Shown here one piece after another: positions 10,445 through 27,670 of a DNA stretch of 35,313 bases (its first letter is position 1; each line of letters begins with the position of its first letter). The notes below the pieces were generated by a model. That model saw nothing but the letters and a program-made list of their open reading frames with translations, was not told the origin of the DNA and made no database searches. The stretch is from Candidatus Dorea gallistercoris (GTDB lineage: Bacteria; Bacillota; Clostridia; Lachnospirales; Lachnospiraceae). The stretch covers positions 1 through 35,313 of the forward strand of contig DXGF01000182.1 in assembly GCA_019114065.1 (NCBI GenBank). Reading direction: 5' to 3'. The translations under genes were made by a program, and so were the position numbers.

Positions 10445-10543
10445 GTATCCAGCCGCTTGATTTTGTTGCGCCTGCCGGGAAACCCTCCAGAATCCAGCCG
10501 CGGCTGCGTCTGTCGCACTGTCGTGTTGAAAGATTCTGTCGGT

Positions 10544-10603
10544 ACCACGCCAAGAAAATCAAATGTCTGCTTCGCAGCCGCTTGATTTTCTTTTGAGCGT
10601 GGT
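10544..10603 (+). terminator. Likely intrinsic terminator
   Basis: ACCACGC..AGAAAATCAA...TTGATTTTCT..GCGTGGT stem followed by GTTTTAATGTTTTTTT. Confidence 0.65.
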
Positions 10604-10632
10604 GTTTTAATGTTTTTTTCATCTTTTTGTAC

Positions 10633-10638
10633 TATAAT
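10633..10638 (+). promoter_or_regulatory. -10 box (TATAAT) immediately upstream of leader element copy 1
   Basis: Perfect TATAAT 6 nt before the 68-nt repeat. The -35 region is weak. Confidence 0.55.
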
Positions 10639-10644
10639 TATGAA

Positions 10645-10712
10645 AGATGTCAGGGTCAAAAGGCCTAAACCCACATGAGCTTGCTCATAAGTGGGTGAAA
10701 GACCTTGGGACC
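10645..10712 (+). repeat. 68-nt dispersed palindromic element, copy 1 (candidate 5' leader RNA)
   Basis: AGATGTCAGGGTCAAAAGGCCTAAACCCACATGAGCTTGCTCATAAGTGGGTGAAAGACCTTGGGACC. Reverse-complement copy at 27591-27658 has 3 mismatches by eye. Nested stems CCCAC/GTGGG, TGAGC/GCTCA, AAGG/CCTT and GGTC/GACC. Confidence 0.85.
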
Positions 10713-10846
10713 CGTCTCGATATGAGCATAAAAGTGGGATGGATATCCCACGATATGCGAATATTGGGCAGGATTGTGAGAGTGCGCAGCAGGTCACGAT
10801 CCGTAGACATTATGAAAAACATTGCATTGAACAGGGAGGGGATTCT

Positions 10847-11524
10847 ATGCGTCTTTTGGTGGTGGAGGACGAGGTTTATCTGCTGGATATTTTAAAGAAG
10901 AGACTGACGAAGGAACACTATAGTGTGGATACCTGTGAGGATGGGCTGGAGGCCTGGGACTATATCAAGCTGACACAGTATGACGGGATCGTGCTGGACA
11001 TCATGCTGCCGGGAATGGATGGGATTGAGCTCTTAAAGCAGATGCGGAAGGAAGGCGATCACACGCCGGTGTTGCTCCTGACAGCCAGGGACAGCATCGA
11101 GGACCGGGTGACAGGGCTGGATATCGGAGCGGATGATTACCTGATCAAGCCCTTTGCCTTTGAAGAACTGCTGGCCAGGATCCGGGTCATGCTGCGCAGG
11201 CAGGATACTGTCCAGCCCCAGGACGAGGTCTACAGGCTGGCGGATCTGTCTGTGGACTGTAAGAGCCATGCGGTGACACGAGGAGGAAAGCAGATTGAAC
11301 TGTCCTCGAAGGAATTCGCCCTGCTGGAATATCTGATCCGCAATCAGGGCGTAGTCCTGTCCAGAGAACAGATCGAGCAGCATATCTGGAGTTATGATTA
11401 CATGGGAAGCTCCAATATGGTAGATGTGTACATCCGGTATCTGCGCAAGAAGATCGATGACGGGCAGGAGAAAAAGCTGATCCAGACAGTACGGGGTGCG
11501 GGGTATGTCCTTCGGGAATCCTGA
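10847..11524 (+). CDS. OmpR-family response regulator
   Basis: 'MRLLVVEDEVYLLDILKKRL...GIVLDIMLPGMDGIELLKQMR...LLLTARDSIEDRVTGLDIGADDYLIKPFAFEELLARI', then a winged-helix C-terminus. ATG 10847 follows a GGGAGGGG RBS. Confidence 0.95.
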   Translation: MRLLVVEDEVYLLDILKKRLTKEHYSVDTCEDGLEAWDYIKLTQYDGIVLDIMLPGMDGIELLKQMRKEGDHTPVLLLTARDSIEDRVTGLDIGADDYLIKPFAFEELLARIRVMLRRQDTVQPQDEVYRLADLSVDCKSHAVTRGGKQIELSSKEFALLEYLIRNQGVVLSREQIEQHIWSYDYMGSSNMVDVYIRYLRKKIDDGQEKKLIQTVRGAGYVLRES

Positions 11525-11553: not shown

Positions 11554-12933
11554 ATGAAGAAACTTTCGATCAAAATGAAAGTGACCATATGGTATACTGC
11601 TTTTGTGGCGATCGTTGCTCTGGTGGCCTTGAGTGTCGTGGCGCTTTACGCAAGCAGGATGCTCTGGTCCGAGCAGGAGGAGGAGCTCAGGGAGGAAGTG
11701 GCGGAGTTCGTGGAAGAGCTGGAAGTGTCAGGAAGTGTCTATGAGCCGGAGGAAGGCAGATTCTATGACGATGACATTGTGTTCAGCCTATACAATGAGC
11801 AGGGGGAGATCCTGGATGGAAATGTTCCGGCCACTTTTCCACAGGATACGACTTTGAAAAACGGAGTCATACAGACGATTTCTTCCGGTGAGCAGGAATG
11901 GCTCACCTACGATATCGCGATCGATTATGGCGGCGGTCAGATGGTATGGGTACGGGGGATCACCTACATGGGCTTGGTATCTTCTATGTCGGGAGGGATT
12001 CTGATCTTTTCCTGCATTTTATTCCCGGTGCTGGTAGTCCTTGCGGTAGTGGGAGGATTTATGATCACGAAGCGGGCGTTTGCCCCAGTGGAGGATATCC
12101 GCAGGACGGCGGCGGAGATCGCCGGAAGCGGAGACCTGGCCCGCCGTGTGCCCACAGAGGAGGCCGGCGGCGAGATCCGGGAACTGGCGGAGACCTTTAA
12201 CGGGATGCTGGGGACGCTGCAATCCACCCTGGAGGATGAGAAACGTTTCACGGCAGACGTCTCTCATGAGCTTCGGACGCCGGTATCAGTGATCATGGCC
12301 CAGGGAGAATACGCCCTGCTGGAAGATGCTACAGAGGAGGAGAAGAAGGAGGCGCTGGAGGTCATCGTAGGCCAGGCAAAGAAGATGTCCGCTATGATCG
12401 CTCAGCTTTTGGAAATGGCAAGACGGGAGAAGGGGGCGGCCGGAGCAGTCCGCGAGAAGATCGATCTGGGAGAGATCATAGACGGGGTGGCAGAAGAACT
12501 GAAAGACCTGTCCGAGCAGAAACAGATCACGATCATGAGTGAATGTGAGAGAGGGTTGACTGTCTGGGGAGAGCAGACGGCGTTTACCCGGATATTCATG
12601 AATCTTGTGACAAACGCAATTCAATACGGAAAGGAAGGCGGCTATGTGTGGCTGAGAGCCTGGAAGGAAGGAGAACGGATCGTCTGCAGTGTGCGGGATG
12701 ACGGGATCGGGATCGGCCAGGAGGAACTGCCCCACATTTTCCGCAGATTCTACCGGGCGGATAAGTCTAGGACAGGGAAGGGCGAGACCCACGCAGGATT
12801 GGGCCTTTCTATGGTCAAGCATCTGACGGAACACTTCGGAGGGGCTGTCCAGGTGTACAGTCAAAAAGAGAAGGGGACTACGTTTGCGCTGTCTTTTCCT
12901 GCTTTACGAAACGAGGATAATCCGGTACAATAG
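11554..12933 (+). CDS. Sensor histidine kinase (HAMP, HisKA, HATPase_c)
   Basis: Two hydrophobic segments, H-box 'FTADVSHELRTPVSVIMAQGEY', N-box 'NLVTNAIQYG', G-boxes 'DDGIGIGQ' and 'GLGLSMVKHL'. Confidence 0.95.
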   Translation: MKKLSIKMKVTIWYTAFVAIVALVALSVVALYASRMLWSEQEEELREEVAEFVEELEVSGSVYEPEEGRFYDDDIVFSLYNEQGEILDGNVPATFPQDTTLKNGVIQTISSGEQEWLTYDIAIDYGGGQMVWVRGITYMGLVSSMSGGILIFSCILFPVLVVLAVVGGFMITKRAFAPVEDIRRTAAEIAGSGDLARRVPTEEAGGEIRELAETFNGMLGTLQSTLEDEKRFTADVSHELRTPVSVIMAQGEYALLEDATEEEKKEALEVIVGQAKKMSAMIAQLLEMARREKGAAGAVREKIDLGEIIDGVAEELKDLSEQKQITIMSECERGLTVWGEQTAFTRIFMNLVTNAIQYGKEGGYVWLRAWKEGERIVCSVRDDGIGIGQEELPHIFRRFYRADKSRTGKGETHAGLGLSMVKHLTEHFGGAVQVYSQKEKGTTFALSFPALRNEDNPVQ

Positions 12934-26345: not shown

Positions 26346-27521
26346 CTATGCTTCATCCAATTTCCGCGCGCCATCGCCGATATCCACAATATAAAACTCT
26401 GCGGTGTGTCCGGTTTTATCCTGATAAGCGCGGCCGATTTCTGTGACAAATCGATCGACGGTATCGTTTTCCACAATGCTGACGGTACAGCCGCCAAAGC
26501 CGCCGCCGGTTATGCGGGACCCGATGACGCCTGGCATTGCCTGGGCAAGATCTACCAGAAGGTCGATCTCTGGACAGGACACCTCGTAATCGGTCTTCAG
26601 AGATTCATGGGAGGCGTTCATCAGTTTCCCGAACAAGGAAATGTCGTTCTGGCGGAGCGCCTCTACGGCCTGAATGGTCCGCTGATTTTCATAGACGGCG
26701 TGTTTGGCCCGTTTCCGGCGCACCGGGTCTTTGATGGAGGACTGAAAGGTCTCAAATGCTTCGCAGGACAGATCTCCAAGAGATTGGATATCTGTGACCG
26801 TGCGCAGTTCCGCAAGGGCGGTCTCACATTCCTGGCGCCGGTCGTTGTAGGCAGAATTGACCAAACTGTGCTTTACTTTGCTGTTGGTGATCACGATCTT
26901 GGAAGTCTCCAGCTTTACCGGAGCATACTGGTATTCAAGCGTGCTGGTGTCCAGGAAGATGGCGTGATCCTTCTTCCCCATGGCGCTGGCAAACTGATCC
27001 ATGATCCCGCAGTTGCAGCCGTTGAAATTGTTCTCCGCATCCTGGCCGATCAGGGCGATCTCCTGCATAGACACCTGGTCGAATCCAAAGGTGTCTTTCA
27101 GGATGATCCCGGTCAGGACCTCCAGAGAAGCGGAAGAAGAAAGGCCGGAACCTGCTGGAATATCCCCGCAGATGGCAATATCTAGACCGTGGGTCAGATG
27201 GAGGCCTCTTTTTTCGAAGGCCCACATGACCCCCTTGGGATAGTTGGTCCAGGAGGCTTCCTTGTGGGGGATCAGATCGTCAAGGCTGGTTTCCAGGACG
27301 CCTAGGGAAGAGAAGTTCATGGAGTAAAACCGCAGGGAGCGGTCCGAGCGGTCCCGCACCACCGCGTAAGTGCCAAGGGTCAGAGCGCAGGGAAATACAT
27401 GTCCTCCGTTGTAATCCGTGTGCTCGCCGATCAGATTGACACGGCCTGGGGCGAAGTAGGCGCGGAGGTCTCCCTCTGAGCCGTAAAGGGTTTGGAATTC
27501 TTTTATTAATTTCGCTAACAT
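26346..27521 (-). CDS. galK: Galactokinase
   Basis: 'FAPGRVNLIGEHTDYNGGHVFPCAL', 'GDIPAGSGLSSSASLEVL', 'GSRITGGGFGGCTVSIV'. Start MLAKLIKEF at 27521 with an upstream AGGAG. Confidence 0.96.
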   Translation of the reverse strand: MLAKLIKEFQTLYGSEGDLRAYFAPGRVNLIGEHTDYNGGHVFPCALTLGTYAVVRDRSDRSLRFYSMNFSSLGVLETSLDDLIPHKEASWTNYPKGVMWAFEKRGLHLTHGLDIAICGDIPAGSGLSSSASLEVLTGIILKDTFGFDQVSMQEIALIGQDAENNFNGCNCGIMDQFASAMGKKDHAIFLDTSTLEYQYAPVKLETSKIVITNSKVKHSLVNSAYNDRRQECETALAELRTVTDIQSLGDLSCEAFETFQSSIKDPVRRKRAKHAVYENQRTIQAVEALRQNDISLFGKLMNASHESLKTDYEVSCPEIDLLVDLAQAMPGVIGSRITGGGFGGCTVSIVENDTVDRFVTEIGRAYQDKTGHTAEFYIVDIGDGARKLDEA

Positions 27522-27590
27522 TTTTCCATCTCCTGTCATGAATGATTTGGGGGTTGCATATTGATCTTGCGTACTTTATGATGATGCTGA

Positions 27591-27658
27591 GGTCCCAAGG
27601 TCTTTCACCCACTTATGAGCAAGCTCATGTGGGCTTAGACCTTTTGACCCTGGCATCT
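27591..27658 (-). repeat. 68-nt dispersed palindromic element, copy 2 (candidate 5' leader RNA of galK-galT)
   Basis: Reverse complement AGATGCCAGGGTCAAAAGGTCTAAGCCCACATGAGCTTGCTCATAAGTGGGTGAAAGACCTTGGGACC. 3 differences from 10645-10712. Confidence 0.85.
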
Positions 27659-27664
27659 TAGATG

Positions 27665-27670
27665 ATTATA
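27665..27670 (-). promoter_or_regulatory. -10 box (TATAAT on - strand) 6 nt upstream of leader element copy 2
   Basis: ATTATA on the + strand. Same 6-nt spacing to the element as copy 1. Confidence 0.55.

Follow-up and report, generated by a model that had tools for sequence, protein, structure and literature searches.

The Clostridiales-1 RNA of Lachnospiraceae very probably forms the interior of a MITE that may supply leaders at host promoters

The Clostridiales-1 RNA (Rfam RF01699) was described in 2010 as a probable RNA, unlikely to act in cis as a regulator and not a riboswitch (Weinberg et al. 2010, PMC2864571). The open-access literature searched here yielded no functional work on RF01699 after 2010 and no mention of mobility. 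No open-access paper was found that links Clostridiales-1 to a MITE, and the open-access papers combining MITE and Lachnospiraceae have titles and abstracts unrelated to the element described here. In eukaryotes, MITEs have been mistaken for microRNA families, according to Rfam (PMC4383904). The present element shares with the Correia or NEMIS repeats of Neisseria the plan of a 100-200 bp MITE, with terminal inverted repeats, a target duplication and a structured transcript (predicted for our element) that enters host messages, and bacterial MITE RNAs participate in regulating neighbouring messages (both reviewed in PMC2229807). The folds differ: NEMIS forms one long stem-loop through pairing of its two ends, whereas the Clostridiales-1 element forms a covarying multi-arm junction with conserved internal loops. 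With the CIR repeats of Caulobacter and Brucella it has in common the dispersal of a small repeat and a phylogenetically conserved multi-arm RNA structure, but for CIR no terminal inverted repeat is listed and duplication is given as undetermined in the same review (PMC2229807), and the hosts differ from Lachnospiraceae.

The window analysed here is a 35,313-nt stretch of DNA from Candidatus Dorea gallistercoris, and it holds two copies of the element. Copy 1 shares the RF01699 fold and matches the model over its full length, with a score that exceeds the curated cut-off. The Rfam model, however, covers the interior only. The family defined here is mobile, extends past the model by ~28 nt on the 3' side, up to an inverted end, and has short members that score below the cut-off, such as copy 2. 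The element fits the bacterial MITE kind, but it is distinct in the multi-arm RNA that it carries, which is conserved throughout a large part of a bacterial family. We consider it very probable that it is a MITE moved in trans, with the selected Clostridiales-1 RNA as its interior, and that this RNA would become a leader where the element lands in sense behind host promoters.

Two copies in the window and the genes behind them

Copy 1 (10645..10812, + strand) contains the complete four-way junction. It scored 119.9 bits against RF01699 (cut-off 48), with all 166 model positions (1-166) aligned, and its predicted fold energy was -77.1 kcal/mol (z = -8.95 versus shuffles); the usual 3' terminal hairpin is missing. 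Copy 2 (27582..27658, - strand) is a 77-bp short form that keeps both inverted ends (end-pair size 77) and in which the first arm is closed by the outer stem, the 3' strand of that stem coming immediately after the arm. Two arms are absent, its score of 40.8 bits lies below the same cut-off of 48, and its predicted fold energy was -42 kcal/mol (z = -6.90 versus shuffles). The earlier note, made from the sequence alone, had reported a 68-nt structured element at 10645-10712 (+) and 27591-27658 (-) with three differences, each copy preceded by a TATAAT 6 nt ahead and able to fold into nested stems. The pair was recovered, with no such pair in 100 shuffles, the hexamers are present at 10633-10638 (+) and 27665-27670 (-), and the stems form as described, with the z-scores given above. 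The 68 nt were nevertheless too short an extent, being the first arm of the four-way junction, and the true ends are at 10812 and 27582; likewise the second copy is real but the two are not the total, as seven family matches were counted in the source genome (2.2 Mb in 195 contigs, 92% complete). The observation was thus correct but incomplete, and the described motif that it had left possible is RF01699.

Downstream of copy 1 is a response-regulator gene (10847..11524, +; Response_reg and Trans_reg_C domains) and then a histidine kinase gene (11554-12933, +; HisKA and HATPase_c domains). Copy 2 is followed by the galactokinase gene galK (26346..27539, -; GalKase_gal_bdg, GHMP_kinases_N and GHMP_kinases_C domains). 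The genes behind the two copies are unrelated, with no sign of a common ligand or pathway. Copy 1 is flanked by the target-site duplication ATTATGAA, on the left at 10637..10644 (+), where it overlaps the last two bases of TATAAT, and on the right at 10809..10816 (+), where the initial bases are possibly part of the end of the element. The left flank of copy 2, ATCATCTA (27659..27666, -), is imperfectly duplicated in the right-end ATCATAAA (27575-27582, -), of which the first base doubles as the last base of the element.

The sites of four insertions (copy 1, copy 2, the copy on contig C26 and a copy in the sister species G001) were compared with empty sites in sister species. At the copy 1 site, the upstream DNA and the TATAAT are shared with G001, in which 13 nt, where the window has about 190 nt, separate them from the response-regulator gene. 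G002 has a TATTATTATAATCATAAAG-like sequence, including the TATAAT, at the copy 2 site and no element. The C26 copy reads AATATTCTA, 196 bp of element and TTCTATAG, as against AATATTCTATAATCC in G001, a perfectly clean junction, and neither G000 nor G002 has the copy found at 704491 in G001. Promoter-like sequence is present without the element at the compared empty sites, and by this comparison the TATAAT at both window loci is host-owned. Since the hexamer is conserved in relatives that lack the insertion, a working promoter is likely at both loci, the TATAAT at 10633..10638 (+) being the probable promoter of the response-regulator gene and that at 27665..27670 (-) the probable galK promoter. 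With the promoter-like sequence belonging to the host, the position of the two copies suggests that they probably became 5' leaders of the response-regulator gene and galK; if transcribed, these leaders would be ~200 nt (copy 1, response regulator and histidine kinase) and ~120 nt (copy 2, galK).

Two further observations concern these loci. At the galK promoter of G001 (L103) there is a short insert with TGAT...ATCA ends, possibly what is left of the same ancestral insertion after decay to a minimal element. A long near-perfect inverted repeat, ACCACGCCAAGAAAATCAA...TTGATTTTCTTTTGAGCGTGGTG, lies immediately upstream of copy 1, at 10529-10612. G001 has this repeat at the corresponding position with 97% conservation, and an 88% relative is found elsewhere, on the other strand, in G002; the repeat is either a bidirectional terminator that has been conserved or one more dispersed palindrome.

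Ends, target sites and distribution of the element family

The Rfam-defined copies were listed with their flanks oriented to the element strand. The extension past the Rfam 3' end is common to many copies and terminates in CTTTTGACCCCAACATCA, which forms terminal inverted repeats of ~18 bp with the 5' end, TGATGCCAGGGTCAAAAG. An end-pair scan of all fetched loci identified 68 full elements of 160-300 bp with both ends, of which 37 were exactly 196 bp, and the shared ends and the 196-bp size class were seen in loci from 36 different stretches. The typical element is 196 bp, exceeding the Rfam model in length, and is non-coding. In 45 of the 68 full elements the ends are directly bordered by an exact direct duplication, 5-6 bp long (10 bp in one case), where permutation of the right flanks (2000 trials) gave 3.7 on average and 11 at most; similarly, the 6-mer flanks were identical on both sides in 30 of 95 Rfam-defined copies versus 8.9 expected. 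A few longer apparent duplications were found, of 8 nt at copy 1 and of 10 or more at one G029 copy. The flanks indicate an insertion target near A|TWWTA|T, AT-rich and roughly palindromic. Besides the 196-bp class there were classes of 38-51 bp (little beyond the two ends), of 68-77 bp (the ends and the first arm, including copy 2) and of about 117-137, 185, 212 and 245 bp. Duplications accompanied 9 of 26 short forms (permuted mean 1.06), and these forms reflect either movement of their own or deletion after insertion.

About eight similar copies in G005 (L078, L079, L080, L081, L088, L089, L093 and L051) form a subfamily with different ends, TGAGCCAAGGGACA...TTTGTCGGGCAACTCA, and several have duplications of their own; end sequences therefore vary between lineages.

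Terminal inverted repeats, a target-site duplication, short non-coding dispersed copies and empty sites are among the features by which bacterial MITEs are recognised, and these were found in this family. Counting against a MITE, both window copies are non-canonical, copy 1 being without the usual 3' end and copy 2 having an imperfect duplication. A shallow search of all fetched loci for inward-facing end pairs 25-4500 bp apart identified no autonomous partner with the same ends, nor were matching ends found, in a similarly shallow search, around rve, DDE_Tnp_1 or Transposase_mut genes. The long end pairs L211, L129, L084 and L127 were rejected as autonomous elements, as they enclose ordinary host genes and represent neighbouring copies or look-alike ends.

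Family matches were present in 24 of 61 genomes (the source genome and 60 relatives), with 17 to 35 copies in several relatives (maximum 35), some in tandem. A first-arm pattern scan of GTDB genomes identified 92 DNA stretches, mostly of Lachnospiraceae, from Mediterraneibacter, Choladousia, Scatomonas, Acetatifactor, Falcatimonas, Kineothrix, Blautia and other genera. Thirteen unannotated human-gut contigs, phage by label only, match the element, and a plasmid search gave no match to it.

The earlier note had named a promoter-linked repeat family as an alternative to a leader RNA. The repeat family is supported by the dispersed copies with target-site duplications, but the promoter linkage is not: a -10-like hexamer occurred 0-7 nt from the 5' end in 38 of 87 distinct copies and at the same place on the opposite strand in 45 of 87, compared with 17 for shuffled flanks, and good -35 matches were few among the 87. 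Because such hexamers are equally frequent on the opposite strand, the TATAAT spacing mostly reflects the AT-rich target preference and not promoter recognition, and promoter-directed insertion was rejected as a general rule. Orientation was scored with genes called by a simple open-reading-frame procedure, and by these approximate counts full elements between tandem genes had no consistent sense position (18 sense versus 15 antisense, p = 0.73), with a further 16 in divergent and 8 in convergent intergenic regions. For copies without the 3' end the corresponding approximate numbers were 24 sense versus 12 antisense (p = 0.065), 17 divergent and 2 convergent. A first next-gene count of 61 sense and 20 antisense was set aside, as divergent regions score as sense in either orientation.

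Selection on the fold and competing explanations

Covariation was strong across 37 diverse copies: 94.1% of cells pair, both sides had changed in 36 of 37 pairs, and the covariation score was 0.601, compared with a highest value of 0.126 when partners were slid and an average of 0.196 for shuffles. The outer stem alone could covary merely as an inverted repeat, but the internal arms covary like the outer stem. With the outer stem left out, G-T mismatches outnumbered A-C mismatches 32 to 12 (p = 0.004, a rough value given that the sequences are related), and this excess suggests that it is the sense strand that folds, RNA being the simplest form. The interior also has conserved internal loops on that strand. 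Given that the internal four-way junction covaries strongly on the sense strand, we regard selection for an RNA fold on this strand as shown at the level of sequence comparison. Covariation of this strength over several arms exceeds the needs of passive transposon DNA, which is a point against a MITE. We tentatively suggest, as a candidate role that is possible although on balance improbable, that the four-way-junction RNA is a working part of the element, required for mobility, copy control or host-factor binding. If this were true, a mobile element would spread in the form of a structured RNA and establish itself as a message leader at existing promoters.

A selected fold with conserved sense-strand loops, together with the Rfam type 'Gene; sRNA', could also be explained by a trans-acting small RNA gene that a mobile element happens to disperse and whose product targets other RNAs or a protein. 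We consider this unlikely, in view of the fact that no promoter lies inside the element before the RNA, which starts at the transposon end, that the terminator-like sites listed include none in the sense direction in the interval from copy 1 to the response-regulator gene, and that the arms kept differ from copy to copy. It is distinctly doubtful, too, that the RNA is a cis-regulatory leader, responsive to a ligand or a protein, that recombination has disseminated and that governs the genes downstream. Both window copies do lie in sense, ahead of start codons and behind a conserved TATAAT, the fold covaries, and copies without the 3' end lean towards sense between tandem genes; conversely, full elements have no orientation bias, the genes behind the window copies are unrelated, the 2010 authors scored Clostridiales-1 as probably not cis-regulatory (PMC2864571), and the ends and duplications show transposon insertion. 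The leader-RNA reading of the earlier note holds for the two window loci, which are structured, in sense, behind host promoter-like sequence, before a start codon and under selection for the fold, but not as a general rule, since orientation is unfixed. Two of the findings that the note had named as speaking against a leader, an Rfam match and dispersed copies with target-site duplications, were obtained, and among the tests that it had proposed, covariation was strong and sense enrichment before genes was not seen in full elements. That a folded strand, of RNA or single-stranded DNA, is the substrate of mobilisation (retroposon-like, or by folded-strand recombination) is very improbable, as the selected four-way junction inside a mobile element, the sense-strand bias and the few longer duplications are set against the hallmark of DNA transposition, namely an inverted repeat at each end and duplications of mostly 5-6 bp, and against the duplications of short forms that lack arms, although deletion after insertion could explain the latter.

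Under the preferred reading, a MITE with the Clostridiales-1 RNA inside, a short non-autonomous DNA transposon inserts at AT-rich, roughly palindromic sites with the 5-6 bp duplications observed, and would be moved by a transposase supplied in trans. Its interior encodes the four-way-junction RNA, the fold of which is kept by selection on the sense strand, and a sense copy landing just behind a host promoter, the position seen at both window loci, would be transcribed as the structured 5' leader of the host message. Based on the precedent of bacterial MITE RNAs and NEMIS, the most likely effect of such a leader would be on message processing or stability rather than that of a ligand-sensing switch. 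NEMIS transcripts are processed by RNase III. An Rfam orphan, for which apparently no function has been assigned since its prediction in 2010, would in this way be recast as the interior of a mobile element with defined boundaries, insertion target and duplication length, and Lachnospiraceae would have a route by which to acquire structured message leaders at existing promoters. The question of why a jumping DNA element retains a strongly selected multi-arm RNA becomes testable, and caution is warranted for copies annotated as sRNA genes, which may be insertions.

Tandem arrays with a period of about 128-146 nt were also observed, at L037:2501-2945, at L045:2501-2909, in L054 and in L096; in these arrays arms three and four recur while the first arm is missing.
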